Positions 9,784 through 24,960 of a stretch of DNA of 25,989 bases are shown here, in pieces. Positions within the stretch are counted from its first letter, which is position 1; the number at the start of each line of letters is the position of its first letter. The notes beneath the pieces were generated by a model that was not told the origin of the DNA, did not search any database, and worked only from the letters and a program-made list of their open reading frames with translations. The stretch covers positions 1-25,989 of IMG/VR virus record IMGVR_UViG_3300010885_001744. One strand, given 5' to 3'. This DNA comes from a virus. The translations under genes were made by a program, and so were the position numbers.

Positions 9784-12700
9784 ATGACAACAGCCGGCAA
9801 ATTTGGCGCACAAGACTTAAATGGTAATCCGTTCAATTACCAGCAGCTAGTAAATCCAGCAATCACTGGACCTAGCAACGTCATAGTCAATACTACTTTC
9901 GTTAACAGAACAGGTACTGCTAACAAGGCAAGATTAGCACTATCTTCAACTGCACTTGTTCCACAGACAGTATCGAGCACACAAGGATTATACCCTATTA
10001 CTGCAAACCAGACTAATAATGCTGCCTCTGTAGAAACACAGCAGATATTAACCATTGGTAGCACTAGTAGCGTAACAAACGCTTTCACAACAGCACCCAC
10101 AACTGTAACAGCAACAGCAACTGGTACTAACCAGATTACTTGCACAAGCACTAACATTCTATCAGTTGGACAACCTGTTGTATTTTCTTCACCGATTGGT
10201 GGACTATCTGCTAACATAACATATTATGTCTTAAACATTGTAAGCAATACAAACTTTACAGTTTCAAACGTTTGGAACGGTGCTATTGTTTCATTAACTA
10301 GCCAGGCAGCTAACGTACTAATGTATCAATCAACTACTAACCTAGTAGTTGGTATGCCAATACAGTTTCATGGTACACCATTTGGTGGACCAGCATATAA
10401 CTTTAACTATTATGTTAATACTATACCAACTAACAACAGCTTTACTGTATCATTAGTGCCAAATAGCGGAAGTGCATTTGCGTTAACAACAGTAGCAGCA
10501 GGAACTTACGGAACATTTAATGCTGTTCCATTAACTGGAAGCATTTTTAGACCACAAATAAACAATCCAGCTTCTGTTAACGTATCAAACATAGTTTCAG
10601 CCACATACAACAGCATACAGGGATTGAGTATTGGATATGCTAACAGCACAGGTAACGTTTTGGTTACTGCTGCTATAAATATTACTGCTACTTTCAATCA
10701 GCAGAGTGCAAGTCCAATAAATCCTTCAGTTATTTTCTGTTCCTCAACACTAACACTAACAACAGGAATGCCAATTGTATTCAGTGCTACTAGCGGCGGT
10801 ATTACAAGCGGTACTATCTACTACGTATCACAGATCCACAGCAGCATTGCGTTTAATATTTCTGCAACTCCTGGCGGCCCTGTGCTTCCATTAACATCGT
10901 CTACTCCAGCAGGTATGACAGCACAGCAATCAACTACTTTCTTACAGATTGGACAGCCAATTGTATTCAATGGTGGTGGTGTATATGGTGCAGGTGTTGC
11001 TAACCAAGCAGGTGTAGGTGGTACTGTATTTGGTAACTTAAACGTTAATACACCATATTATGTATTAACTATTCCAAGTTCAACTACATTTACTGTATCA
11101 ACTGTTCCGGGCGGTTCTGCTGTAACTCTTCTTACTGAAGGCATGAACGGTACTATTGTAACTGCCGGTAGCTTTAAAATTGGTCAACGATATGTTATCG
11201 TTACAACTGGTACTACAACATTTACTGGTATAGGTGCAGGTGGTAACTCACAAGGTACTGTATTCGTTGCAACTGGCGCTGGTACTGGTACTGGTACTGC
11301 AATGGTTTGTACTTCATATGTAGCTGGTGGTTCTTTAGTAGCTGGTGTAACTTATGCTATTGGTTATTTAGGAACTGTAACTAGTACTAACATTAACACA
11401 GCAGCCGCAACTGGTACAACACAGCTATCTGTAGGTGGTACAGCTACTCCATACTCAGCAGTTGGTGGTTTTACTTACGCTAACCCAACAGGTGCAGCAG
11501 CAACTAACAACCAAGTAATTAGTTATTTCGTAGCAACTACAACTACTACTGCTGACGGTGTGTTTATTCCGATAAACCCAATGGTTACTACAACTGCTAA
11601 CCATATTGCAAATCCATTAACATTAGCTAGCTCAAGTGCAGTTACTAGTGCATTTACTATGGCAGCTATCGCAGTAACAGCAACAGCGGCATCGACTGGG
11701 TATATAACTTGTGCAAGCACTGCTACATTAGCTATTGGTATGCCAGTTGTATTTGATACTTCATTCTCAACTATTACAGCTGGTACTGTTTATTATGTAT
11801 TGACTACACCAAGTTCAACTACATTCCAGATATCTGCAACACAGATTACATCAACTACACCAAACGTTGCACTATTTCCATTAACTACAACTAGTGCGCA
11901 GACAGTTAATATGTATCAAGCAAATACCAACTTAGTGGTTAACGTACCAATGATATTTACTGGTACTACTTTTGGTGGTGTAACTGCTGGACAGATTTAT
12001 TATGTTCAGAACTTATTAACAAATACAGTTAGCGGTGTAGCAATACCAAACGCATTCCAAATTTCAACAATATATGGTGGTCCTGCACTAACATTAACTA
12101 CTGCTAGTGGTACAATGGTTGGATCTGTTCTCCCAGTTGTTCCAACTATTAACGTAAACGCTTCGACAGCAAGTGGTTCATTAACAGTAGGTGGTGTAGT
12201 TGGTACTTACACTAACTTCCTTACTACACAGTTTGCTACTTGCTCTGCTACAGCAGGTTCGGCACCATATGAAATCACTGTAAACTCAACTAGCTGGATG
12301 TCAGTAGGACAGCCTGTAGTATTCAGTTCTACCAACAGTGGTAGTGCTATATTTGCATCTACTAGTGCTATTGGTAGCACTAATATAAGCGGTGGTACTG
12401 TATATTATGTTTCAAACATTGATAGTTTAACAGCTTTCCAGGTATCGGCTACTTATGGTGGCTCACCTGTAGCACTTGGTTCAACAAGCCAGACTATGTA
12501 TGTTTATCAAGCTACTTCTAACTTAAACGTAGGACAACCTGTAGTATTTACAGGTGCTACTATTACAGATAGCAGCCTAGCATTAAACACAACATATTAT
12601 GTTTCATCTATATTAGGTTTAGCATACTTTACTGTATCAAGCACAATTTATGGTGCACCTATAACATTAGCAGGTGGCGGCACTAACATCAACAGTGTAC

Positions 12701-15700
12701 AAATTGGTCCACGCCCATTAATGACAATATCTGGTACTGTCACATCAACCGGTGTTACTATGATGACTTACCCAGTATCTGCTACACAGCAGATTACTAA
12801 CTTAATCACAGTAAACACTACATATCCACTAATGGTAGGTATGCCAGTTGTATTCAGTGCTGCTACTGGTTTAATGGCTGCTAACCAGCTATTTTATGTA
12901 GCAAGCATCGTAAACGGTACACAGTTTACAGTATCGTCAACTAAGGGTGGCCCAGTTTATGTACAAAACACTACAACTGGTATCAGTGCAAACTTACAAC
13001 AATCTACAACAAACTTATATCTAAATCAACCATTAGTGTTCTTTGCAACAGTAGCAAGTTCTTCAGTTTCTAACGCTACAAGCGTACCAACTGGACTTAC
13101 TAATATGGTATATGGATATACTGTTTACATTAGATCATTTAACAGTTTAGTTTCGTTTACAATATCACTATCACCTAATAGTTCACTACCTGGTGCAACT
13201 GCTGCTACACTTATATCACTATCAACGGGTGGTGTTACTAACGCATTTGCTTTCCTACCAGTAACTAATAACGTAATTTCAACTCTTGCTTATCAGACTG
13301 CTCCGGTTGCTGTAACTGCAACTAGTGCTACAGCACCATACTTAATTACTTGCGCAAGCACAGCTGGTTTTGCAATCGGTCAACCAGTACAGTTTGACAT
13401 AGCAATTGGTGGATTAGCTATTAATACAATCTATTATGTGTTAACTACTCCAAGTTCAACTACATTTAACGTATCTTCTACACCATTTGGTGGAGTTGTA
13501 GTTACTACAGCAGCTACTGGCGGCACAGGTAACGTTTGGCAGTCAACCGCTGGTTTAACAGTTGGATCTGCAATACAGTTTACTACAGCAAGTTCATATT
13601 TTGGTTTACCAACTGATACATATAAGAACTATCTAGCTGCTGGTTATAGCAACTTATCAGCAGGTTTAACATTCTATGTACAGAGTATTCCTAGCTTTAA
13701 CACAGTTATATTAACACTGATCAATGCAAGTCCTGCATCGTTTGGTGCTACTTCAAGCTCTACAGCAGGAGCTTTTGGTGGTGTTGGTATGTTACCGTTA
13801 GGCGTTGGAACATTTACATCAGGTGTACCAGCAAGTGGTGCACAGAGTGGTGCTATGTATCTCAATACTATTAGCCCAGTTCCTCCACTAATAATTGGTT
13901 CAACAACAACAACTTCAAACCTATTTACTACACAGGCAATTCCTGTATCAGCTACATCAGCTACTGGTAATACAATTACTTGTACTTCTACACAGTATTT
14001 TTATCCTGGAATGCCAGTAGTGTTTAGTTCTGGTTTAGGAAATCTTGTTTCTAGCACAATTTACTATGTATTAACTATTCCAACTACAACTACATTTACT
14101 ATATCAGCATCATTTAATGGTACAGTGTTTACTCAAACAACTGCTAGTGGTTCAGTATCAGTACAACAGACAGCATTGTTCTTACAGATAAATCAACCAG
14201 TTGTATTACAGGGAACATTGCTAGGAAATCAGATCACTAGTTATTCTATTAGCAGTGTTACAACGGGTGGTATAGTAACTTTAAATAGTGCAGTTACATT
14301 AATTGCTGGTTCTACAATTACATTTAACGCTGGTTTAACTGGTGGTACTGGTATTACAGCTGGCGCAACATATTATGTTACAACATCTGTAACATCAAGC
14401 ACAACTATAACAATAAGTGCTACATATGGTGGTTCTGCAATTTCTATTGCTGGTGGTTCTGCAACAGGTACTACAACAGTGATAATCAACCCTATGATAG
14501 GACCAATAGCTGGTACAACATATTATGTAACACAAGTTACAAGCAGCACAACCTTTATAGTTAGCCAGTATGTAAATGGACCTGTATTATCTGTTCTTAC
14601 ATCTACTGGTATACAGTTTAGTGCATTAACTGGTCCATATAGGCACTTCTTAATAAGTGCTACTTCGAGTGCAGCAACTCCTACTTTAACTTTAGGAACA
14701 TATAGCGTATTTGGAACACAGTCAACTAACGGTACTAACTTGGTAATAGTAAACAATACTTTTGCTTTCTATCCAGGACAACCAATATCAGTTGGTGGTA
14801 CGTCAGGTGTGTTAATAACAAGCGTGATATATTATGTTGTTAACATATATGACCAGTATCGTATGACAATTTCAATAGCTCCACCTAGTCAGTATGCTTC
14901 ACCAAATAGTTTTGGTTACATACCAACTACAAACAGCATCATTTATCAAACACCAAATGGTACTGTATTGCCTGTTACTACACAGACAACAACCCAGACA
15001 CTTTATCAGTCAACAGCTAAACTACAGCTTAATCAGCCAGTTATGTTCTATGGTAACTTAGGTGGTATGACAGTTCTTTCTAACGCATTAGTAATTGGTC
15101 GAACATATACTATTGTAGCAGTAGGCGACGCAACCTTTACATCATATGGTTCTGCTGCAAATACCGTTGGTACAGTGTTTACTGCTACAACAACAGGTGG
15201 TGGTACTAGTGGATTAGTTTATAGTGGTTTCTTAAATACTAACGCAGTATTGCTTCCAAATACTGTTTATTACGTAAGTTCAATAAGCGGTGCAGGTATT
15301 AATGCTAACGCAATTACAGTTTCAGCATCGCCAACATATGCTGGTGTTAACATAACATCATATATTTCCAGTGTTACTAACGCTACACCTGGTGTGTTTA
15401 CAGTATCTGGATTACCTTTCCCACTAGTTGTAGGACAGGCAATCACTATAACAGGTACTGCAACTAACGGTACAACTATAGGCGGTGGTTCAGCTACAGT
15501 GAACGCTACTTATTATGTGCAGACAGTACCAAGTGCTACAACATTTACTTTAGAAGCTTATCCAGGTTCAGGTAACCTTGCAGTAGCAGTTAGCACATCA
15601 GTAGCAGGTTGGACATTTACACTAAACGGTATTAATCCAAATATTTCTGTAAACTTGTCGTCTGCAAGTTCGGCAGCACTTGGAGTAAGTACTGTAGGTG

Positions 15701-18222
15701 CAGGTTCAGCACAGGCAATGACAATGGTTGCAATGATGAGTAACGTAACTGCTCCAAATGTGTTCCAAGCACAACCATTACCGATAACATTTACAACTGG
15801 CTCAAGCACATATACACTAAACACTGGTGTTGTTACTGTAGCATATGCTACAGCAATTAACACTAATTTAGTAACTTGCTTATCAACAGCTGGTTTAACA
15901 ATTGGTATGCCAATATCATTCAGTGCTACACTAGGTAATATAGCATCAGCTACTACATATTATGTCCTAACAATTAATAGTTCAACTACATTTACAGTAG
16001 CAACTACTTGGGGTGGACAGGTATTAATAATGACTAATGCTTACAACTATTCCTATGTACAGCCATCAACTGCTAACTTAACACTTGGGCAGCCGATGGT
16101 ATTTAACGGAACAGTATTTGGTGGTATTATTTCTTATAACACTTATTATGTAGCAACTATACCAACTACAACATCATTCACCCTTGCTAATAGCTTAATG
16201 GCAGCGATTGGTACTGCTGGTTCACCAACTCTAGTACAGACTACAGCAGCAACTGGTTATATGTTAGCTTATACTGCTAGCGGAAGCACAACAACTACAG
16301 GTGCTGTTGTGGGAGGTGCTAACAACGGTGCATTTGCATCAGGTAACTATGGCTTAGTACTTGGCACACAGTATATGATTACTTCTGTAGGTACAACTAC
16401 TTGGACTAGCTACGGTGCAGCAACTAACACTGTTGGTACAATCTTTACTTGTACTTCTCCAGGTGCTGCATACGGTCTTTCCGGTGCAATGATTGGTTCT
16501 GGTACAGGAACTGCTATAGAACTAGTAGGATTAATTGGAAATATGAATGCTCCAATTGCAGCAAATGCACCTGGTATATTTGTTGGTCCAACTATCACTG
16601 TTACAGGTATAAATGGTACACAGCTTTATACTCCAGGTAACACAAACTATCTAAGTGTTGGTCAGGCTGTAGTGTTCACTGGATATACTTTCATAAGTGG
16701 TATTACAGCAGGACAGACTTACTATATACAGAGCATTGTAAGCAGCAACGTGTTTACATTAAGTGCAACTAACGGTGGATCTGTATTAACATTTACTACT
16801 GGTAGCAATACATTAACTATGCAGATACTAAACAGCATAGGCACTAGCTTAGTACCATATCAGACTTACTATACACAATCTGTTCCTAACCCAATATCTT
16901 GGAGCATTAGCAGTACTAACGTACAGGCTCCAAACATATCAGTTAGTGCAGTTGCTACAGGTACAGCATTTACTACTGGTGCCTATACTATTACAGCAGT
17001 AACAGCTACTGGTAACTTAATTACTACAGCATCAACTGCTGGACTAGCTGCTGGACAACCTGTAATATTCCTAACAAGTCTAGGTAACTTAGCTGCATCA
17101 AGCACTGTATACTATATACTAACAGTTTACAGTTCTACACAGTTTACTGTAAGTTCTACTGCAACTGGACAGGTATTTAATCCAGGTACTGCTTCAGGTA
17201 GCGTAACTATGCAAATAGCTACTTCAAACCTAACAGCTGGACAGCAGATATCATTCTCAGGTAACGTTGGTTCAAGCGGTGTTGTAATTGGAACAAACTA
17301 TTACATACAGAGCCTAAATGCTAACTTGTATCAGTTTACTGTTGCAAGTACTCCAACAGGATCTGCACTATCGTGGACCGCTACTACATTTACTAGTAAT
17401 AGCGTAACTGCTAACTTTATTATTAATGCCACTACATTGACAACTAGTACAACTTCTACTGTATCATATCAGAGTAATATACTAACTCTTGCTACAGGCA
17501 GCAGCACTAGCTACTTGTTACCAAACCAACCAGTTGTGTTTACTAACACTTCAGGTAGTAACTGGTCAAGCTTAAACTCAATGTTGACTATTAACAGCAG
17601 CAGTACGTTCTCTTCAGCATATGTTGTAACAACTCTTGCTAACGGTAATACTGGTACAGTTACATTAAACTATGTAACAGGTAATACTGTTACTAACACA
17701 GCTACTACATTAACAACTGGAGCTTTCCCAGGATTAACTGTTAACCAACCAGTTGTGTTTTTTGGAACAGCAGCAGGCGGTCTTGTAATGGGTCAGACTT
17801 ATTACATAAGGGCAATTACTGCTGCTACAACAATAACATTATCAAGTACTCCAGGCGGCGCAGCTGTAGCAATTACTGCTGCTACTCCAGGTTCAGCAAT
17901 GTTAATGATTCCAGCTTACTATGTAAAGGCAGTTACTAGTAGTAATACACTACAAGTTACAGCTACACCAAACGGTACTGCTGTTGTAATACCAACAGCA
18001 TATGCTACTGGTACTAACGTAGTACAGATGACTCCAATGCCAATGAACACAGACTTTATCTACGGCGACGTAGCTATAGCTGCTCAGACTCAGGTAACAC
18101 AGAATGGTATATTAGTACCACCAAACACTTACTTGTATGTTTCGGGTGGTTTAACAGTATTTGGATCAGGTGCAGGTTCAAGTATGAACGTTATCGCAAT
18201 CGGTGTACAGGATCTAGTATAA
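9784..18222 (+). CDS. Giant repeat tail-fibre/adhesin protein (2812 aa)
   Basis: The ATG at 9784 has AGGAG at 9772-9776. Residues 1-95 form a distinct head (MTTAGKFGAQDLNGNPFNYQ, then VIVNTTFVNRTG) that probably attaches the protein. From about residue 95 to 2740 it is built of about two dozen diverged modules with the plan L-x-V-G-[QM]-P-V-V-F, a glycine-rich turn, YYV, S-x-T-x-F-T-[VI]-S, and G...L-T. Three copies of another module interrupt this series. The last 60 residues (PMPMNTDFIYGDVAIAAQTQ, then VPPNTYLYVSGG and MNVIAIGVQDLV) are non-repetitive and look like a tip. The protein is dominated by Thr, Ser, Ala, Gly and Val with very few charged residues. No peptidase, lyase or membrane segment was seen. 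Inferred role: a long beta-solenoid or beads-on-a-string fibre contacting the host. The frame is open throughout, with no sign of frameshift. Confidence 0.75.
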   Translation: MTTAGKFGAQDLNGNPFNYQQLVNPAITGPSNVIVNTTFVNRTGTANKARLALSSTALVPQTVSSTQGLYPITANQTNNAASVETQQILTIGSTSSVTNAFTTAPTTVTATATGTNQITCTSTNILSVGQPVVFSSPIGGLSANITYYVLNIVSNTNFTVSNVWNGAIVSLTSQAANVLMYQSTTNLVVGMPIQFHGTPFGGPAYNFNYYVNTIPTNNSFTVSLVPNSGSAFALTTVAAGTYGTFNAVPLTGSIFRPQINNPASVNVSNIVSATYNSIQGLSIGYANSTGNVLVTAAINITATFNQQSASPINPSVIFCSSTLTLTTGMPIVFSATSGGITSGTIYYVSQIHSSIAFNISATPGGPVLPLTSSTPAGMTAQQSTTFLQIGQPIVFNGGGVYGAGVANQAGVGGTVFGNLNVNTPYYVLTIPSSTTFTVSTVPGGSAVTLLTEGMNGTIVTAGSFKIGQRYVIVTTGTTTFTGIGAGGNSQGTVFVATGAGTGTGTAMVCTSYVAGGSLVAGVTYAIGYLGTVTSTNINTAAATGTTQLSVGGTATPYSAVGGFTYANPTGAAATNNQVISYFVATTTTTADGVFIPINPMVTTTANHIANPLTLASSSAVTSAFTMAAIAVTATAASTGYITCASTATLAIGMPVVFDTSFSTITAGTVYYVLTTPSSTTFQISATQITSTTPNVALFPLTTTSAQTVNMYQANTNLVVNVPMIFTGTTFGGVTAGQIYYVQNLLTNTVSGVAIPNAFQISTIYGGPALTLTTASGTMVGSVLPVVPTINVNASTASGSLTVGGVVGTYTNFLTTQFATCSATAGSAPYEITVNSTSWMSVGQPVVFSSTNSGSAIFASTSAIGSTNISGGTVYYVSNIDSLTAFQVSATYGGSPVALGSTSQTMYVYQATSNLNVGQPVVFTGATITDSSLALNTTYYVSSILGLAYFTVSSTIYGAPITLAGGGTNINSVQIGPRPLMTISGTVTSTGVTMMTYPVSATQQITNLITVNTTYPLMVGMPVVFSAATGLMAANQLFYVASIVNGTQFTVSSTKGGPVYVQNTTTGISANLQQSTTNLYLNQPLVFFATVASSSVSNATSVPTGLTNMVYGYTVYIRSFNSLVSFTISLSPNSSLPGATAATLISLSTGGVTNAFAFLPVTNNVISTLAYQTAPVAVTATSATAPYLITCASTAGFAIGQPVQFDIAIGGLAINTIYYVLTTPSSTTFNVSSTPFGGVVVTTAATGGTGNVWQSTAGLTVGSAIQFTTASSYFGLPTDTYKNYLAAGYSNLSAGLTFYVQSIPSFNTVILTLINASPASFGATSSSTAGAFGGVGMLPLGVGTFTSGVPASGAQSGAMYLNTISPVPPLIIGSTTTTSNLFTTQAIPVSATSATGNTITCTSTQYFYPGMPVVFSSGLGNLVSSTIYYVLTIPTTTTFTISASFNGTVFTQTTASGSVSVQQTALFLQINQPVVLQGTLLGNQITSYSISSVTTGGIVTLNSAVTLIAGSTITFNAGLTGGTGITAGATYYVTTSVTSSTTITISATYGGSAISIAGGSATGTTTVIINPMIGPIAGTTYYVTQVTSSTTFIVSQYVNGPVLSVLTSTGIQFSALTGPYRHFLISATSSAATPTLTLGTYSVFGTQSTNGTNLVIVNNTFAFYPGQPISVGGTSGVLITSVIYYVVNIYDQYRMTISIAPPSQYASPNSFGYIPTTNSIIYQTPNGTVLPVTTQTTTQTLYQSTAKLQLNQPVMFYGNLGGMTVLSNALVIGRTYTIVAVGDATFTSYGSAANTVGTVFTATTTGGGTSGLVYSGFLNTNAVLLPNTVYYVSSISGAGINANAITVSASPTYAGVNITSYISSVTNATPGVFTVSGLPFPLVVGQAITITGTATNGTTIGGGSATVNATYYVQTVPSATTFTLEAYPGSGNLAVAVSTSVAGWTFTLNGINPNISVNLSSASSAALGVSTVGAGSAQAMTMVAMMSNVTAPNVFQAQPLPITFTTGSSTYTLNTGVVTVAYATAINTNLVTCLSTAGLTIGMPISFSATLGNIASATTYYVLTINSSTTFTVATTWGGQVLIMTNAYNYSYVQPSTANLTLGQPMVFNGTVFGGIISYNTYYVATIPTTTSFTLANSLMAAIGTAGSPTLVQTTAATGYMLAYTASGSTTTTGAVVGGANNGAFASGNYGLVLGTQYMITSVGTTTWTSYGAATNTVGTIFTCTSPGAAYGLSGAMIGSGTGTAIELVGLIGNMNAPIAANAPGIFVGPTITVTGINGTQLYTPGNTNYLSVGQAVVFTGYTFISGITAGQTYYIQSIVSSNVFTLSATNGGSVLTFTTGSNTLTMQILNSIGTSLVPYQTYYTQSVPNPISWSISSTNVQAPNISVSAVATGTAFTTGAYTITAVTATGNLITTASTAGLAAGQPVIFLTSLGNLAASSTVYYILTVYSSTQFTVSSTATGQVFNPGTASGSVTMQIATSNLTAGQQISFSGNVGSSGVVIGTNYYIQSLNANLYQFTVASTPTGSALSWTATTFTSNSVTANFIINATTLTTSTTSTVSYQSNILTLATGSSTSYLLPNQPVVFTNTSGSNWSSLNSMLTINSSSTFSSAYVVTTLANGNTGTVTLNYVTGNTVTNTATTLTTGAFPGLTVNQPVVFFGTAAGGLVMGQTYYIRAITAATTITLSSTPGGAAVAITAATPGSAMLMIPAYYVKAVTSSNTLQVTATPNGTAVVIPTAYATGTNVVQMTPMPMNTDFIYGDVAIAAQTQVTQNGILVPPNTYLYVSGGLTVFGSGAGSSMNVIAIGVQDLV
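11152..11313 (+). repeat. GTGTGTA-type module, copy 1
   Basis: Residues about 457-510 of the giant fibre read GSFKIGQRYVIVTTGTTTFT, then GIGAGGNSQGTVFVATGAG and GTGTGTAMV. The plan is GxxYxI...GTTxFTxxGAxxNxxGTxFxAT followed by Gly-Thr pairs. The same module recurs twice later in the gene. From memory, this small module is scattered through many phage structural proteins. Confidence 0.6.
15076..15222 (+). repeat. GTGTGTA-type module, copy 2
   Basis: Residues about 1765-1813 read SNALVIGRTYTIVAVGDATF, then TSYGSAANTVGTVFTATTTG and GGTSGLVY. It interrupts a VGxPVVF-type module after QPVMFYGNLGGMTV; the YYVSSI strand of that module resumes downstream. This suggests loop insertion. Confidence 0.55.
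16345..16530 (+). repeat. GTGTGTA-type module, copy 3
   Basis: Residues about 2188-2249 read NYGLVLGTQYMITSVGTTTW, then TSYGAATNTVGTIFTCTSPG and, after an AAYGLSGAMIG extension, SGTGTAIEL. It matches copies 1 and 2 in the YxI...GTTxxT core and the NTVGTxFT strand. Confidence 0.6.
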
Positions 18223-18237
18223 GTTAACACTTATACT
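18216..18237. terminator. Hairpin spanning two convergent stop codons
   Basis: AGTATAAG (18216-18223) and CTTATACT (18230-18237) form a perfect 8-base stem with loop TTAACA. The stem covers the TAA of the giant fibre gene and, on the other strand, the TAA of the cupin gene. No T-tract follows on either strand, so it may protect RNA 3' ends or weakly terminate; it is not a classical intrinsic terminator. Confidence 0.45.
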
Positions 18238-18593
18238 GGATAACTAGGAAAAATCAAAAAAGTGTCGGCAAGCTTATCAGCTGTCGACACTTCTGATATC
18301 ATACTACCAGCAACTATTGCTTCTAATTGATGAGGTCTTAGAGGTTGGCAACGCCATACACTACCTTCAGTTAATACACTTTCTTTGATTTCTGCTGTAG
18401 CAGTATCTATCCATCTTAGGATAAATTTACCAGTATTAACAAACCAGGTTTTATCTTTTTCTTTATGGAAATGCATACTAGTCCTAGAACCAATCTGTTC
18501 AAAGACCATCATTTTAGCACAATACAAATCTGTATTTGCCCAAACAATTTCGTAACCCCAATTTTTTTTGATTAAACCTTCTTTATTTGACAT
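18231..18593 (-). CDS. Small cupin-fold protein (120 aa)
   Basis: The N-terminal LIKKNWGYEIVWAN matches the KxWGxE opening of type II mannose-6-phosphate isomerase-like cupins. Cupin motif 1 is H41-x-H43 (SMHFHKEKDKTWFVNTGKF) and motif 2 has His88 in PLRPHQL. The C-terminal EVST segment is also typical of the group. The usual motif-1 glutamate (position 48 by the spacing to Gly55) is lysine, so metal binding may use Glu45 or Asp47, or be lost. The length is that of a single cupin domain with no fused nucleotidyltransferase. Its substrate cannot be told. It has its own promoter-like sequence and terminator. The promoter spacing places the predicted transcript start at the ATG, and no ribosome-binding site is visible. 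It is unlike its structural neighbours and may modify sugar metabolism in the infected cell. Confidence 0.75.
   Translation of the reverse strand: MSNKEGLIKKNWGYEIVWANTDLYCAKMMVFEQIGSRTSMHFHKEKDKTWFVNTGKFILRWIDTATAEIKESVLTEGSVWRCQPLRPHQLEAIVAGSMISEVSTADKLADTFLIFPSYPV
18246..18292 (-). terminator. Intrinsic terminator inside the cupin 3' coding end
   Basis: Read on the minus strand, AAGTGTCG (18292-18285) pairs with CGACACTT (18267-18260) around an AGCT-GATA-AGCT inner hairpin. It is followed directly by a run of T and then GATTTTTCC (down to about 18246). The structure is encoded by the codons for EVSTADKLADTFLIF, so the polymerase would stop just before or around the stop codon at 18233-18231. 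Confidence 0.65.
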
Positions 18594-18599
18594 AAAGAT

Positions 18600-18628
18600 A
18601 TTATATTATGATAGCGTATATTTGTCAA
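18600..18628 (-). promoter_or_regulatory. Consensus sigma70-type promoter for the cupin gene
   Basis: On the minus strand TTGACA (18628-18623) and TATAAT (18605-18600) are separated by exactly 17 bases, so both hexamers and the spacing match the bacterial housekeeping consensus. The -35 hexamer overlaps the stop codon of the Nudix gene. A start site seven bases past the -10 falls on the A of the cupin ATG (18593), which predicts a leaderless message. Confidence 0.7.
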
Positions 18629-19065
18629 CTATCTGCTTTAATTAAATCCATCATTTCAAAAATAGTATCTAATTTAGCACGTACTATCTTACTGCTAACT
18701 GTATTTTTTATACCTTGGTGTACTGGTCTAGGCCATTTATCAATCGGACACCAAGCCCACCCCATATGCTCACTGCTCAATGTAGGAACAAATTCATCGC
18801 TTACTATACAAACATAAGTTTGGAAATTAAAATGATTGTCATCACTAACAAACATTTCTAGAGGAATTGATTTAATCGTATCAGGCATAAATCCAATTTC
18901 TTCAATAACTTCTCTCTGTAATCCTTGCCACACTGATTCGTCAGGATGTATCTTACCTCCTACTAAACCCCATATACCTTCTTTTTTTCCGGAAGCTTTT
19001 TGTAAAAGTAAAAATCTTTTGGTATTCCTACTTAAAAATAAAGCGCCACTGCTCTTTATTTTCAA
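18625..19065 (-). CDS. Nudix hydrolase (146 aa)
   Basis: The Nudix box GxxxxxExxxxxxxREUxEExGU is complete: G37, E43, R51, E52, E55, E56 and G58 in GKIHPDESVWQGLQREVIEE then IGF. The preceding GIWGLVGGKI is the usual entry strand. Such enzymes hydrolyse a nucleoside diphosphate linked to another group, using divalent metal held by the box glutamates; the substrate cannot be told here. The frame is closed by TAA just upstream of TTG at 19080. A second TTG at 19065 is preferred as start: it overlaps the upstream TGA as TTGA and has GGAG nine bases before it. The product then begins M(L)KIKSSGALFLSRNTKRFL. It is coupled to the gp15-like gene. Inferred role: nucleotide or cap-metabolite clean-up during infection. 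Confidence 0.85.
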   Translation of the reverse strand: MKIKSSGALFLSRNTKRFLLLQKASGKKEGIWGLVGGKIHPDESVWQGLQREVIEEIGFMPDTIKSIPLEMFVSDDNHFNFQTYVCIVSDEFVPTLSSEHMGWAWCPIDKWPRPVHQGIKNTVSSKIVRAKLDTIFEMMDLIKADS

Positions 19066-20429
19066 AGTATTAGTCTCCAATTACCAGCAAAATATTCGCC
19101 ATCGATACTTTTAGTCCAACTCATACCGTCCCATTTATACTGTATCTGTGTTTTTAAATTAAGTACGTATACAGTATCTTTAGTATTCTCACTGTTAAGT
19201 ACAACTACCCAAGAAGATCCGTCCCACATTATAATGTCATTAGCATTAGCAGTAAAATCATCTCCAGAAACACTTCTCCAAGCAGCAGGACCATATCCTG
19301 CAGGATTTTTACTACTGCCTATTGGGTTTAATATTAAGTATCTTATACCAGAAGCTACTTCGCCTGGATTATAAGTAAACGGATCGATGATAGCATCGAT
19401 ACTTCCCCTACCTTCAATTATAGTATTTGAAGGATACGTATCTGGATCCCAATTAACTAACATCACATTATTATCAACAGGATCAATAGTACAAGTTCCT
19501 ACAACATCATATCCTGTTGATTGTTTGAGATATATCTGGCTAACTCCAGCTTTAAATTCTCCATATATATCTAAAACAGATTGCCAATTTGTATCAGGGC
19601 CGTATTTTATATTTGGAGCTATGACTTCGTGACTGATATTTTCGTATCCGGCTAGTAGTTTTACTTGATTAGTGTAAACAAACACTCCAAAATTTCCTGG
19701 AGTAGCATTTACTCTAGCTGCTGGCCTGCCAAACATAAAATCTTTATCTATTTCACCAGGGGGCTCTGTAAAGATATTTGTGATAATACTAGTTATAACT
19801 CCCATACTTTTGACCTTAGCTGGCGGAGTTATCCATATCGGTGTATCAAACTCTAGTGTAGCAACATCGATTTCACTATCAACACCGACTGGAATAGTCC
19901 TATTACTCCACTGTACTTGGCTAAGATAAACAACTGTGAGACTAGTCCAGTCTACAAAATTATCAGTAGTTTGTATCTCTAGACTAGGATTAAACAATAC
20001 TAATATCTGTTCTAGTATCTGCATTTTTTGTTCAGTATTTGATGCCCATATATCTGCTTTTACTCTCAAATTAAATGGGGTAGGCATTATTCTTTCAATG
20101 GTATAATTCTGTCCTTGCACGTTTTCGTAACGACCTGTATCAGGATTTATCTTTCTTTCTCTTATGTATACATTTTGAGTATAACTAGAATCTTGTAATC
20201 TCTTTGTATCTAAACTAAGACCGTTTACATATAAACTTATCCTAGGAGCACTAGGCAATTTATTCTCGCTGTTATCTCTCAAGATGCTAGATACACTTCT
20301 ACTCATATCTCCATATAATACCGGAACAACTCTTTGTGTACCATCTCCTGCTTGGACTTTAAAGCCACTTAGCATCCTTATCATTTGAGATAGATATCGC
20401 CTTAATTGGCCGTCATAAAAGAACTCCAT
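19062..20429 (-). CDS. 15: T4 gp15-like tail terminator / sheath stabiliser, extended (455 aa)
   Basis: In T4, gp15 forms the hexamer that caps the tail tube and sheath before head joining. The N-terminal half follows T4 gp15: an opening FFYDGQLRRYLSQMIRML, a VPVLYGD strand, MPTPFNLRVKADIWASNTEQ (116-135), ILEQILVLFNPSLEI (138-152) and TLEFDTPIWITPPAKVKSMG (191-210). T4 gp15 has about 270 residues and the homology seems to end near 225. The remaining 230 residues are an extension with fibre-like WDGSSW and WDGMSW motifs near the C-terminus. The ATG overlaps the stop of the upstream gp14-like gene by one base (TAATG), and the 3' end overlaps the Nudix gene. The identification rests on my recollection of the T4 sequence. 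Confidence 0.7.
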   Translation of the reverse strand: MEFFYDGQLRRYLSQMIRMLSGFKVQAGDGTQRVVPVLYGDMSRSVSSILRDNSENKLPSAPRISLYVNGLSLDTKRLQDSSYTQNVYIRERKINPDTGRYENVQGQNYTIERIMPTPFNLRVKADIWASNTEQKMQILEQILVLFNPSLEIQTTDNFVDWTSLTVVYLSQVQWSNRTIPVGVDSEIDVATLEFDTPIWITPPAKVKSMGVITSIITNIFTEPPGEIDKDFMFGRPAARVNATPGNFGVFVYTNQVKLLAGYENISHEVIAPNIKYGPDTNWQSVLDIYGEFKAGVSQIYLKQSTGYDVVGTCTIDPVDNNVMLVNWDPDTYPSNTIIEGRGSIDAIIDPFTYNPGEVASGIRYLILNPIGSSKNPAGYGPAAWRSVSGDDFTANANDIIMWDGSSWVVVLNSENTKDTVYVLNLKTQIQYKWDGMSWTKSIDGEYFAGNWRLIL

Positions 20430-21946
20430 TAGAAATCTGCCTTTGGTAATAATGCTTTACTTAATGCTTGACGTTGCTGTACACCTTCTTTATATAATGT
20501 CCAAGCTACAATATCACCAGGCATTAATACAAATTCTGTTTGGAACGATGAGAATCCATTGTTATTTACAACGCCCTTAGTTGGCATATTTGTTTGATTT
20601 ACGAATACTTTTACATTATGTTTAACATCATACGGAGTTCGAGTAGTAATTATACTATTATCTAAATCTAATAATGCTGTTGAATCATTAGATTCGAATA
20701 CATTCGCATCTCGAACAACAACTGTATCTCTAGCAATGGGTTTTATTCCAGTAATATTAGTGTTGTTTATAAATCCTGTCTTTTGAGTATACCTAGTATC
20801 AGTATTAGTTAATGTCATTTTTACATCTTCCTCAAACACAGTCCATCGTGTTCCGTTAAATCGAAACATCCTGTTTGGTAGATAGTCAGTCCTAAGATAA
20901 AAATCTCCTATAGCCGACTCTGGTGGAAACGCTATACCAAATCCAAAAGGCAATCCGTTTGGCGGATATCCTTGTCCTAACATATAGCCTTTATATCCAG
21001 ATTTTAACGGTGCCGGATTTTCTGCATCAGCAAAGTCTACATCGTCGATGTTTATATCTAAATTATCAACAGTTGTTAATGCTGCCTTACCTTTTTCATC
21101 TAATGCTATCGTATAATAGTTTTGTGTGCTATATCCTGCTGTAGGAGCATCTGCTTCAGCAGCTGCTACAACACTATCATTTAATAATTGTTCAATACTA
21201 AACGTACTCATCATAGCTCTAAGATTAGTGCTAGCATCTTGTGGTGTAAAGAACGCAGTGTTTGGAGGTTCTGTATTGGAACATTGCGCTGTTACAGTAT
21301 ATAAAACTCCTGCTGATTTAACTATTTGCCCAGGATAATATGTTTTAGAAGAATCATAATCTCCAGCATAGTTGTCAGTATTTTGTGGCATATCTAAAAT
21401 ATCTTTGAATTCTTGGCTGTCTACTATTGGTTTTAGTTTTAATCTGTAAAGATGTGGCCACCAAGTAACTGAAAATCCTTCTGCTGCCCGATTGATTTCT
21501 TCTACTACATAGAATCTTTTAAGTCCATAAGCAAAATTATTTGCTGCAAAATCATCTATGAGATGTGGCAGTTCAATGACATCACCGCTCATTATCTTAC
21601 GACCCATTGTTTCAACACTGTTATTAATATGTACGGTCATAAAAATAGTATCGTTTTGTAAGAATAAACCAAATTGACTTAGATTAAAATCTATATCTTG
21701 GACGTTATAAACACCTCGCATAACATATACAGTTGGATCATATTTACGATCTCTATTCTCTAGGAATAATACATCCTGTATAGTAGTTGGAGATGTTGCT
21801 TTATTTGGATCAGTTGGATCAGCAGGGCCGATATATTTGTGGAAAAACACATCTACACCACCAACTTGGAACTGTTCATAGACGGTTTTATCTATAAATT
21901 TGTAGTCATTACCGCGTTCGGGCTTATAATTCGAGAGTCTAGGCAT
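20429..21946 (-). CDS. 14: T4 gp14-like neck protein, enlarged (505 aa)
   Basis: The start is the ATG at 21946 (MPRLSNYKPERGNDYKFIDK). The longer frame begins with TTG at 21976, inside the promoter region, and is unlikely. T4-gp14-like segments are VGGVDVFFHKYIGP (28-41), a long FNLSQFGLFLQNDTIFMTV (87-105), GDVIELPHL (121-129) and YGLKRFYVVEEINRA (140-154). Gp14 joins head to tail in T4 and has about 256 residues there. This protein is roughly twice that length. Residues 195-237 insert a GDYDSSKTYYPGQIVKSAGV module like the repeats of the 1341-aa fibre. The region from 347 has GDFYLRTDYLPNRMFRFNGT and a TNTDTRYTQKTGFINNTN stretch that I recall from marine T4-like neck proteins. It is followed at once by the gp15-like gene. 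Confidence 0.65.
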   Translation of the reverse strand: MPRLSNYKPERGNDYKFIDKTVYEQFQVGGVDVFFHKYIGPADPTDPNKATSPTTIQDVLFLENRDRKYDPTVYVMRGVYNVQDIDFNLSQFGLFLQNDTIFMTVHINNSVETMGRKIMSGDVIELPHLIDDFAANNFAYGLKRFYVVEEINRAAEGFSVTWWPHLYRLKLKPIVDSQEFKDILDMPQNTDNYAGDYDSSKTYYPGQIVKSAGVLYTVTAQCSNTEPPNTAFFTPQDASTNLRAMMSTFSIEQLLNDSVVAAAEADAPTAGYSTQNYYTIALDEKGKAALTTVDNLDINIDDVDFADAENPAPLKSGYKGYMLGQGYPPNGLPFGFGIAFPPESAIGDFYLRTDYLPNRMFRFNGTRWTVFEEDVKMTLTNTDTRYTQKTGFINNTNITGIKPIARDTVVVRDANVFESNDSTALLDLDNSIITTRTPYDVKHNVKVFVNQTNMPTKGVVNNNGFSSFQTEFVLMPGDIVAWTLYKEGVQQRQALSKALLPKADF

Positions 21947-21950
21947 CGTA

Positions 21951-21959
21951 GTATTTATT
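21951..21959 (-). promoter_or_regulatory. Late-promoter-like box AATAAATA for the gp14 transcript
   Basis: The minus strand reads CAATAAATAC, one base off the T4 late box. It lies only about six bases before the ATG at 21946, so a normal late start would give a leaderless or nearly leaderless message. No ribosome-binding site is visible. It forms the left arm of a perfect inverted repeat with the box on the other strand. Confidence 0.45.
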
Positions 21960-21965
21960 GCTAAC

Positions 21966-21973
21966 GATAAATA
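21966..21973 (+). promoter_or_regulatory. Late-promoter-like box GATAAATA, divergent
   Basis: The box lies 28 bases upstream of the ATG at 22002; AGGTGA at 21992-21997 is the ribosome-binding site. GTATTTAT (21951-21958) and ATAAATAC (21967-21974) are perfect inverted arms around an 8-base spacer, so two promoters face away from each other. Confidence 0.6.
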
Positions 21974-22001
21974 CAATGAGTAAAGATATGCAGGTGACCT
22001 T

Positions 22002-22529
22002 ATGACAAATCAAATTATAAATCTAGGTACTGGAGCAAACAGCAAAAACGGTGACACTGTACGTAAGGCATTTGCCAAAGTTAATGCAAATTTTGCCGAG
22101 TTATATTCAACTGTTGGACCAAGTATAATTCCTGATATAACCGGCAATGGTGGAAAATATTTAACTACGAACGGAACAGCTTTATCTTGGGCAGATGTAT
22201 CTCCTGTTACAGATCGTTTAACTAAAGTCACTCCTAGCGGAACACGGTCACTTAGTTTAGATACAAGTGGTGTATTAACTTTATCTGTATCAAATAACAA
22301 CAAAAGTGTACTAAGAAGTATAACTGATATGCAAATAGCTGCTGGTAGATATGTTTGGACTTTTGGAAGTGACGGAACACTAACACTACCACCGGGCGGA
22401 AACATAAACAACAGCGGCGGCACAGAATATGCACCCGGCGGTGGAGGAACATCATTATTAATTGATGGGGGTTCTCCTACAACAGTTTATAGCGGCGATG
22501 CATTAGTAATTGACGGAGGCGCCGTTTAA
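22002..22529 (+). CDS. Short tail-fibre protein (175 aa)
   Basis: The N-terminus TNQIINLGTGANSKNGDTVR then KAFAKVNANFAELYS (residues 2-36) is a recognisable phage structural head of the form INxGT...GDxxRxAFxKxNxNFxELY. It is followed by GNGGKYLTTNGTALSWADVS, a linker seen in fibres and also in the 788-aa gene downstream (GNGGKFLTTDGAGVLSWAS). One WTFGSDGTLTLPPGGNI unit follows, the type that is repeated in the 788-aa fibre. The C-terminus has two [DN]GG motifs (LLIDGGSPTTVYSGDALVID then GGAV). Probably a short fibre or fibre adaptor. A remnant of a third DGG unit lies in frame after the stop. Confidence 0.65.
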   Translation: MTNQIINLGTGANSKNGDTVRKAFAKVNANFAELYSTVGPSIIPDITGNGGKYLTTNGTALSWADVSPVTDRLTKVTPSGTRSLSLDTSGVLTLSVSNNNKSVLRSITDMQIAAGRYVWTFGSDGTLTLPPGGNINNSGGTEYAPGGGGTSLLIDGGSPTTVYSGDALVIDGGAV

Positions 22530-22539
22530 ACAAAATGTG

Positions 22540-22547
22540 AATAAATA
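22540..22547 (+). promoter_or_regulatory. Late-promoter-like box AATAAATA
   Basis: AATAAATA lies 46 bases before the ATG of the 788-aa fibre gene and 10 bases after the stop of the upstream gene. It is one base off the T4 late consensus. Confidence 0.5.
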
Positions 22548-22559
22548 TAAGAAATAGAC

Positions 22560-22592
22560 ACTGATCTAATAATCGACGGGGGCTTAATACAA
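22560..22592 (+). pseudogene. In-frame remnant of a fibre DGG end motif
   Basis: In the reading frame of the upstream 175-aa gene, but after its stop codon and two further stops, the bases encode DTDLIIDGGLIQ. This matches the DALVIDGGAV end of that gene and the DTVLNGGGA end of the next. It looks like the tail of an earlier, longer version of the gene. Its GGGGG (22578-22582) now lies 11 bases before the next ATG and can act as ribosome-binding site. Confidence 0.4.
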
Positions 22593-22593
22593 A

Positions 22594-24960
22594 ATGGCAT
22601 CAAAAATTAAATTACGAAGAGGTACTAAACAACAGTGGATCGATGCTTATCCTATAATATTAGACATCGGTGAACCAGGATTAGAACTAGACACAGATAA
22701 AGTTAAGTACGGCGACGGACTTACTGAGTGGCAGAATCTAACATATTCTTCAGAACCAATTCCTGCTCAATTAGGTAATGGCGGAAAATTTTTAACTACA
22801 GACGGTGCAGGTGTACTTAGTTGGGCATCTATAGTTGATAATGACTCAATGTATGTTACTTCTACAAGCTTAACATCTACACTATCAAATTATGCACTAA
22901 CTACTTCTTTAAGCGGATACATTAGTTCTACAGCATTAGGTCATTATACATTTACTGACGATGCTGGTGACACTATACGAAATTCTTCTACAGCGAATAT
23001 TAATTTAAAGACTGGTACACGTTCTTGGTCATTCCAAACTGACGGAACAACACATTTTCCAAACTATACATTTCCTGTAGGACACGGTACTGCTGGTCAA
23101 GTATTAATAGATAACGGTGGTGGTGTATTAGCCTGGGGAACAATTACTGGAAATGGAAATGCTAACACTGGTAATTTTACATTTAATTCTAATCAATTAT
23201 CAGTTAATAATACAAATAATATAACACTTGTTACTAATGGTAAAACTTGGACATTTGGATCTAACGGAACAACAACGTTACCAACAGGTGGATCAATCTC
23301 ATTAGGCGCAGGTAATTCTACTACTATTATTGATGCAGACGGAGTTGCAATAGGAATTGATGCGACTCATTATGTTGCTGTTGGATCACCTAGCACAGTT
23401 ATAAATTCTAATGGAAATAGTTGGAGTTTTGGATCAACTGGTGTATTATCGTTACCAACTGGTGGATCTATATCAAGAGCTTCGTTAGGACTCACAGCCA
23501 TTACCGACGCCGACGGCGTAGCAATAGCAGTTGATACATCCCATTACGTAGCAACTTCGACAGTTAATACTGTTATAAATTCTGGAGGTAATTATTGGAC
23601 ATTTGGAACTGATGGTATTTTATCATTACCAATAGACAGCGTGATTAAAGGTAGTTCTAATTCTACAGTTACTATACAATCAAATTTAAATAATTGGATA
23701 TTTAGAGCAGATGGTAATTTAAGATTACCAGACGATAGCACATTTATATCTAGAAATAACACTTCAGTTAATATTGAATCTAATTCAAAAACTTGGACGT
23801 TTGGTCCGGATGGTAAATTAGTATTACCAGATAGCGGTAGGATTAAAGGTAGAAATAATACTTCAGTCGCTATTGAATCTAACTCAAACATTTGGTCATT
23901 TAATCCAGACGGTATTTTATCATTACCGATAGACAGCGTGGTTAAAGGAAGTGGTAACTCTACTGTCACTATCCAATCAAATTTACACAATTGGATATTT
24001 AGAACAGATGGTAATTTAAGATTACCGGCAGGTGGTGGTATAACTGACAGCGCCGGAAATAGTGTATTAGGTAGTAATACTACTAGGCTAGTTAATGGTG
24101 ATAAAACCCTAACACTTGAATCAAATGGCGATGTAACATTACCATCATCCGGAAATATAAATGCTCCTAATGTAAGTAGTGGTCACGGTAATTCTATCAC
24201 GATAACAGCAGGCACAACTACTCAGATGGCTAACACTGGTGGTAGCATCATACTACAAGCAGGTAGCGGATCAGTACCTACTACAGGGTTTGACGGAGAC
24301 ATCCAGCTTAAAACTTCAAGCGATACTTGGACTTTTGATCAAGGTGGGAAACTAAACTTACCACAATCTGCAACTATAGCAGATACAGGAAACAGTGTTG
24401 TCATAACACCGAATCATTTAGCTAGTGATTTCCAACTAGAAATTAAAGCATATAATGAATCACCGACTCCAGATGACATACATATTCGTGCAAACAATAC
24501 TGATTACGGATTAACATTAGGTGATAGCAACGGCGGCAGTTATGTTTCTATTAATGGTGATCTACACGATAATGAAGTTATAATTTCAACTATTAATAAG
24601 AACAATGAGGAACGCAAAGAATTTGTATTCGACGTATCAGGGCATTTACAAGTTCCAGGCGATGTACAAGTTTCAAGCATTGGCGCATTTAAAAACAGTA
24701 ACGGAATAAGAGCTGCGTATATAAATGAACTTCCAACTGATGTTAGTGATTTAACAGACAATTCGGGAATGTTTTCTGTAGGTCAACAAGTTGCCGAATT
24801 AAATATCGACGGCGGCCACGCATTAGCATTCTTTGCTCCTCCGATAGCAGCAGACGGTGGCGGATCAGCAGGACGATTTGGACCAAACAGCATTGTGTTC
24901 AACGGAGGCGCTGCCGCAGGTGGGGTTTATGATACAGTATTAAACGGCGGCGGAGCATAA
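22594..24960 (+). CDS. Tail fibre with Mtd_N-like head and W-x-F repeats (788 aa)
   Basis: Residues 3-52 (KIKLRRGTKQQWIDAYPIIL, then GEPGLELDTDKVKYGDG and TEWQNLTY) match the N-terminal domain of the Bordetella phage major tropism determinant family, a head found on many phage fibres. A GKFLTTDGAGVLSW linker follows. From about residue 145 to 640 the protein repeats a W-x-F-x-x-D-G-x-L-x-L-P-x-x-x-x-I unit about ten times; some are perfectly periodic in the DNA. Near residues 605-690 there is a separate beta domain (SDFQLEIKAYNESPTPDDIH). The C-terminus has two NGG motifs (IVFNGGAAAGGVYDTVLNGG then GA). The start codon is followed by the next gene's ATG one base after the stop. Inferred role: trimeric receptor-binding fibre. 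Confidence 0.75.
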   Translation: MASKIKLRRGTKQQWIDAYPIILDIGEPGLELDTDKVKYGDGLTEWQNLTYSSEPIPAQLGNGGKFLTTDGAGVLSWASIVDNDSMYVTSTSLTSTLSNYALTTSLSGYISSTALGHYTFTDDAGDTIRNSSTANINLKTGTRSWSFQTDGTTHFPNYTFPVGHGTAGQVLIDNGGGVLAWGTITGNGNANTGNFTFNSNQLSVNNTNNITLVTNGKTWTFGSNGTTTLPTGGSISLGAGNSTTIIDADGVAIGIDATHYVAVGSPSTVINSNGNSWSFGSTGVLSLPTGGSISRASLGLTAITDADGVAIAVDTSHYVATSTVNTVINSGGNYWTFGTDGILSLPIDSVIKGSSNSTVTIQSNLNNWIFRADGNLRLPDDSTFISRNNTSVNIESNSKTWTFGPDGKLVLPDSGRIKGRNNTSVAIESNSNIWSFNPDGILSLPIDSVVKGSGNSTVTIQSNLHNWIFRTDGNLRLPAGGGITDSAGNSVLGSNTTRLVNGDKTLTLESNGDVTLPSSGNINAPNVSSGHGNSITITAGTTTQMANTGGSIILQAGSGSVPTTGFDGDIQLKTSSDTWTFDQGGKLNLPQSATIADTGNSVVITPNHLASDFQLEIKAYNESPTPDDIHIRANNTDYGLTLGDSNGGSYVSINGDLHDNEVIISTINKNNEERKEFVFDVSGHLQVPGDVQVSSIGAFKNSNGIRAAYINELPTDVSDLTDNSGMFSVGQQVAELNIDGGHALAFFAPPIAADGGGSAGRFGPNSIVFNGGAAAGGVYDTVLNGGGA
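23248..24027 (+). repeat. Periodic W-x-F-x-x-D-G repeats: two of 174 bases, four of 99 bases
   Basis: The TGG codon of each unit falls at 23248, 23422 and 23596 (174-base steps) and then at 23695, 23794, 23893 and 23992 (99-base steps). The 174-base units carry an extra DADGVAIxxDxxHYVA insert. Bases 23611-23730 and 23908-24027 form a 120-base direct repeat, offset by exactly 297 bases, with only a minority of positions differing. Confidence 0.8.

Follow-up and report, generated by a model that had tools for sequence, protein, structure and literature searches.

Phage morons and prophage accessory loci are extra genes lodged between core genes, present in some relatives and absent from others, and carrying their own sigma70-type promoter and a hairpin with a run of T residues; in the strict prophage sense of the word, a "moron" is of benefit to the lysogen. 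The cupin gene described here, which lies opposite a long convergent gene, resembles these loci in placement, patchy distribution and signals, but differs from them in that its terminator lies within the coding sequence, its transcript is predicted to be leaderless and the gene is most likely what is left of a cassette of several genes.

Homologous cupins are found in the ADP-heptose/LPS cassettes of the cyanophages S-SM2, P-SSM2 and S-CAM1 (T4-GC 307; PHROG 7851, "cysteine dioxygenase") and, at the same site and behind a homologous promoter, in PA5oct-like relatives that carry the cassette (L031, L043, L124). The clade of solo cupins to which our gene belongs differs from these cassettes in having no hldE, hldD or gmhB and in having lost a Glu among the metal ligands of the cupin.

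In its expression signals, the gene recalls two other systems. The ribosome-rescue genes arfA and brfA carry an intrinsic terminator that lies within the reading frame a short way ahead of the stop codon and yields non-stop mRNA (PMC8012679; PMC6881298); in brfA, this rho-independent terminator cuts off 9 residues (PMC6881298). The cupin gene has the same arrangement and the same potential for non-stop mRNA, but its protein is unrelated and its residues past the terminator are conserved. Like the leaderless cI mRNA of phage lambda, the cupin message is expected to begin no more than a base from its start codon and has no Shine-Dalgarno sequence, but the cupin is not a repressor and its leaderless state is a prediction from sequence.

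Genomic Setting

The source record, a 25,989-base viral fragment from IMG/VR that was analyzed over its whole length (the window), comes from a PA5oct-like contractile-tailed phage. A structural gene in the gp14 position, a gp15-like gene, a NUDIX gene and the cupin gene follow one another on the minus strand and converge on a plus-strand gene of 2812 amino acids:

20429..21946, minus strand: virion structural gene in the gp14 position, ATG start at 21946 (PHROG 11591, E=7.3e-80)
19062..20429, minus strand: gp15-like tail sheath stabiliser (Pfam PF16724, E=5.5e-21)
18625..19080, minus strand: NUDIX hydrolase gene, upstream neighbor of the cupin and fixed left border of the cassette site (Pfam PF00293, E=2.4e-16)
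18231..18593, minus strand: solo cupin gene, 120 amino acids, ATG start, stop codon 18231-18233 (PHROG 7851, E=5.7e-26)
9784..18222, plus strand: convergent gene of 2812 amino acids, repetitive, presumed tail or virion protein, fixed right border (from the open reading frame list)

The order structural gene-gp15-NUDIX is also that of Pseudomonas phage PA5oct (Arenbergviridae), and environmental relatives of gp15 are plentiful in the viral collection (368 confirmed stretches). The cupin gene begins ~30 nt after the NUDIX stop on the same strand, its own stop lies 8 nt from that of the convergent gene (long convergent genes are likewise located in L028 and L029), and it is flanked only by these two genes, with no neighboring hldE, hldD or gmhB.

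A Conserved Promoter at the Cupin Start

The initial annotation had reported a perfect sigma70-type promoter upstream of the cupin gene, and this is borne out: on the minus strand, TTGACA (18628-18623), a spacer of 17 nt and TATAAT (18605-18600) match at 12 of 12 positions, and no other perfect site exists in the window, where 0.06 would be expected.

18623..18628, minus strand: -35 hexamer TTGACA, overlapping the NUDIX stop codon, invariant in four lineages
18600..18605, minus strand: -10 hexamer TATAAT after the 17-nt spacer, TATAAT or TATACT in relatives at identical spacing
18591..18599, minus strand: 6-nt gap and ATG, with a leaderless transcript start predicted at ~18593 from the conserved spacing

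Four lineages of solo cupin were compared (the window, L001, L002 and L027/L028/L030). All keep TTGACA, the 17-nt distance, TATAAT or TATACT and exactly 6 nt to the ATG, although 13 of the 17 spacer positions vary among them. We also considered, and rejected, the idea that the -35 hexamer is a by-product of the end of the NUDIX gene: among relatives it lies at offsets of -1, -5, -8, -11 and -17 from the NUDIX stop and in different frames, so that NUDIX coding is no cause of it.

The initial annotation had further proposed comparing related phages for presence of the cassette, and this comparison revealed a fixed site at which the promoter comes and goes with the cassette. The 48 non-redundant junctions downstream of NUDIX comprise 33 without a cassette, five with a cupin only and 10 with a heptose cassette; a promoter matching at no fewer than 10 of 12 positions (>=10/12) occurs at 13 of the 15 junctions with a cupin or ADP-heptose cassette and at none of the 33 without (Fisher p = 5e-10, a value that overstates independence because the junctions share ancestry, although the pattern is clear nonetheless). 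Its absence from the other two cassette junctions (L070 and L050) indicates that it is not obligatory, and at the hldE-headed junctions L123, L124 and L127 the -10 is weaker and the first ATG lies 4-10 nt away. In the 145-kb relative G001, only two perfect promoters are present, one of them at the cupin. The cupin gene thus appears to have a promoter of its own, perfect and conserved in the sigma70 manner and independent of the phage late programme.

The distance from the -10 to the ATG, which in most cassettes headed by hldE or NT amounts to 5-6 nt, bears on translation as well: with only 6 nt, the usual start distance would put the 5' end on the start codon. We therefore predict a leaderless transcript starting at the A of the ATG (18593), about the position that the initial annotation named as the transcript start, leaving its leaderless consequence unremarked. 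No Shine-Dalgarno sequence precedes the cupin; unlike its promoter, the early-type promoters of relatives mostly have leaders of 18-35 nt, most with a Shine-Dalgarno-like sequence. In the record G003, sigma70-type promoters that are perfect or nearly so crowd positions ~11,660-23,300, mostly one per small gene; their spacers are 16 nt long and their leaders of the GGGCAA type, and the stretch is likely an early region.

The Neighboring Late Operon

That the surrounding genes use late-type boxes holds for the operon as a whole and fails gene by gene: a box precedes the gp14-like gene, and none was found at the starts of gp15, NUDIX or the cupin.

21952..21958, minus strand: ATAAATA box of the late type, 12 nt upstream of the gp14-like ATG and likewise placed in G001; probable promoter of gp14-gp15-NUDIX

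The exact sequence TATAAATA was rejected as a definition of the late box, since it is not enriched in the window (two found against 5.4 expected); the core ATAAATA is informative only once its position is taken into account. This core is rarer than chance in the window (seven against 14.7 expected), and by our reading of the positions six of the seven sites closely precede the start of an annotated gene. In G001, octamers containing ATAAATA are among the most enriched upstream words, and the box occurs at 17 genes. By this ATAAATA-type upstream box, the genes next to the cupin appear to form a T4-type late operon. With only 12 nt between box and ATG (21946-21958, minus strand), as in G001 also, the late mRNA of the gp14 position may be leaderless too.

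An ADP-Heptose Cassette at the Same Site

Many relatives carry genes for HldE, HldD, the cupin and often GmhB at the site of the window cupin, usually headed by the homologous promoter; the identities of HldE, HldD and GmhB were confirmed by NCBIfam. The closest sister junctions are either empty (L109, L120) or full (L124, L127), and L123, L124 and L127 share with the window the exact overlap of the -35 with the NUDIX stop. With the window counted, the solo clade numbers just four distinct lineages. Most likely, then, the unit in the window is a reduced form of the cassette (hldE-hldD-cupin-gmhB in relatives) in which the cassette promoter has been left driving the cupin. We infer the direction from cassette to solo gene from the shared promoter position and the kinship of the cupins; the cupin tree leaves the order open. 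The view of the gene as a self-contained, single-gene moron consequently survives as regards its own promoter and gives way as regards independent acquisition of a single gene.

No GmhA-type (SIS_2) gene was found in ten records (G001-G008, NC_015279 and NC_020837), most of which have HldE-type genes, so the cassette cupin may stand in for the isomerase that is lacking. A literature search turned up no useful paper joining phage, cupin and heptose.

A Terminator Hairpin Within the Coding Sequence

The initial annotation had placed a hairpin with a T-run at the end of the gene. The hairpin stands, as the best of the 204 T-tracts tested; its position does not, as the structure lies inside the reading frame, with the T-run starting 28 nt before the stop (34 nt in relatives).

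18260..18292, minus strand: terminator hairpin AAGTGTCGaCAGCTGATAAGCTTGcCGACACTT inside the cupin coding sequence, from the folding scan and codon conservation
18249..18261, minus strand: T tract TTTTTTGATTTTT, with T6 at 18261-18256 (TTTTTT conserved in relatives); predicted transcript 3' end at ~18250-18257, before the stop

A built-in terminator scan missed the hairpin, which has an internal loop and a bulge, and a folding-based scan found it. Its energy is -15.1 kcal/mol (z -5.4); none of 200 shuffles folded as well, and the best of 1,267 shuffled tracts reached -16.1 kcal/mol. Codons whose amino acid is invariant across the four lineages are identical at nine of 10 positions in the hairpin, against 21 of 63 elsewhere (p = 0.001), and those fixed in the hairpin include ones rare in the phage (GTG 5.9%, TCG 4.7%, GCC 4.1%). 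The exact hairpin pattern occurs in five viral contigs only, all in the solo-cupin clade, and its arms are invariant among lineages, so that no compensatory change is seen. A bidirectional terminator was rejected because the plus strand has no T-run.

In relatives, the cupin and the convergent gene share 4 nt at their overlapping stop codons, so a terminator has to sit inside the gene. Efficient termination at a T-run 28-34 nt before the stop would give stop-less mRNA. The codons past the terminator nevertheless keep L, I, P and S with synonymous changes across the four lineages, which suggests that full-length protein is made and that some messages reach the stop.

The Cupin Protein

The AlphaFold model of the cupin has a pLDDT of 91.5, with the lowest confidence over the final ten residues, and Foldseek against the PDB returned cupin-fold matches at E ~1e-8, among them quercetinase, D-lyxose isomerase, KdgF and CapF. 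On this modeled structure, the protein belongs to the cupin superfamily and has its conserved beta-barrel fold. No one enzyme was singled out by the structure search; "cysteine dioxygenase" is only the name of PHROG 7851, and Foldseek lists CDO among many cupins and not at the top. The earlier proposal that the product is not a structural protein agrees with our finding no virion-protein homologue. A decaying pseudogene was also considered and rejected: the solo cupins are under purifying selection, with dN/dS ~0.1 where dS is unsaturated.

The canonical His-His-Glu-His metal site is absent from the window cupin, which keeps H41, H43 and H88 and has Lys48 in place of Glu. Among 86 distinct cupins, this fourth-ligand position is Glu in 79 and Lys in seven, namely all six solo cupins (6/6) and the cupin downstream of hldD in L024. 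Throughout the window's solo clade, the DNYR..GDSQ tail, conserved elsewhere, is likewise missing. These two losses make the ancestral enzymatic role doubtful, and the cupin probably no longer performs the reaction of the cassette enzyme, or acts without that chemistry. A role of the family in sugar metabolism is well supported by gene context, so the label of sugar-metabolism cupin suits the cassette relatives and does not extend to the solo cupins. Bacterial relatives were uninformative on function, with only nine loci in a collection of 84,980 species genomes at the sensitivity used.

A Model for Expression and Its Alternatives

Combined, these features lead us to favor as probable a model in which the cupin forms a separate transcription unit, a reduced cassette with a host-type promoter, a leaderless mRNA, an embedded terminator and a changed cupin, inserted between the end of the gp14-gp15-NUDIX late operon and the convergent long gene. 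Transcription by the sigma70 RNA polymerase of the host would begin on the ATG or no more than ~1 base away, and as no phage late factors would be needed, the gene could be transcribed from the start of infection. The terminator in the last codons, embedded there because there is almost no intergenic space, would limit antisense transcription into the convergent gene. A coupled ribosome suppresses intrinsic terminators (PMC5021804), and a ribosome close behind the polymerase would do so here, so that translated messages would reach the stop and uncoupled ones would end before it. The product would be a folded, selected cupin with three His ligands and without the Glu ligand and the family tail. 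Promoter activity, the leaderless start, early timing, termination and the order of gene loss are all points that we infer from the sequence.

In DNA as AT-rich as this (GC 0.37), many weak promoter-like matches arise (35 found in the window against 47 expected), and a perfect promoter might be no more than a coincidence of such sequence with the NUDIX end; given the tiny expected number of perfect sites, the conservation in four lineages in different frames and the lack of any such promoter at the cassette-less junctions, we strongly disfavor chance and consider it highly improbable. It is also conceivable that the promoter is little used and the cupin mainly the last gene of the gp14-gp15-NUDIX late message, the unit not being independent in practice. 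The cupin and NUDIX lie on the same strand, a late box stands upstream of the gp14-like gene, and there is no terminator sequence between NUDIX and the cupin, so that late read-through is likely in addition to the cupin's own transcript. As the main route we find it quite improbable, since the promoter elements are strictly conserved over a diverged spacer and tied to cassette presence, and since polycistronic translation should be poor for a gene without a Shine-Dalgarno sequence.

An unlikely alternative to coupled readout is that the terminator is efficient and most transcripts lack a stop, so that the cupin, at about 110 of its 120 residues, is tmRNA-tagged and kept low unless trans-translation is overloaded. 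The position of the T-run in all four lineages, the rare codons that maintain the hairpin, the same design in brfA and a barrel that would survive truncation are all in keeping with this; the conservation past the terminator argues instead that full-length protein matters, and the convergent stop overlap in relatives explains the terminator position more simply. Rather speculative is an extension in which a leaderless host-promoter mRNA usually ends before the stop and the tmRNA-held ex-heptose cupin rises when rescue is saturated in infection, in a new and possibly non-enzymatic role. As to the protein itself, the solo cupin might still be an ADP-heptose or LPS-type sugar enzyme working with host enzymes, which we judge doubtful. 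It retains three His ligands, and cupins with a three-His site can be active. Of the 79 canonical cupins, 73 lie no more than 3 kb from heptose genes, and cyanophage homologues sit in LPS gene sets (PMC3037559). The substitution of Lys for Glu and the tail loss throughout the solo clade speak against retained activity, as does the finding of no hldE in G001 or G007, two records that may be incomplete.

On our favored model, the locus would offer a comparative case of an auxiliary cassette that keeps its own early-type unit inside a late virion operon and shrinks to one promoter-keeping gene, as well as a phage gene on which the predicted combination of a leaderless message with a terminator ahead of the stop codon can be tested. 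That every solo copy has lost the Glu ligand points to an altered function.

Other Occupants of the NUDIX Junction

Several further arrangements were seen downstream of NUDIX. In L081/L085, a similar hairpin and T-run lie 34 nt before the stop of gmhB, the last cassette gene, at a convergent junction, a second instance of a terminator placed within a reading frame. In the cassette-less L064, L072 and L082, the terminator at the NUDIX-stop junction is compact and symmetrical, AAAATGCCCC..GGGGCATTTT. A second type of solo cupin, without a promoter and followed by a small ORF, comes after NUDIX in L050 (2612-2989) and L055; here all four ligands are lost (F, Q, K, V). In L129/L130, the start of an FAD-dependent oxidoreductase-like gene follows NUDIX instead, which suggests a general insertion site.
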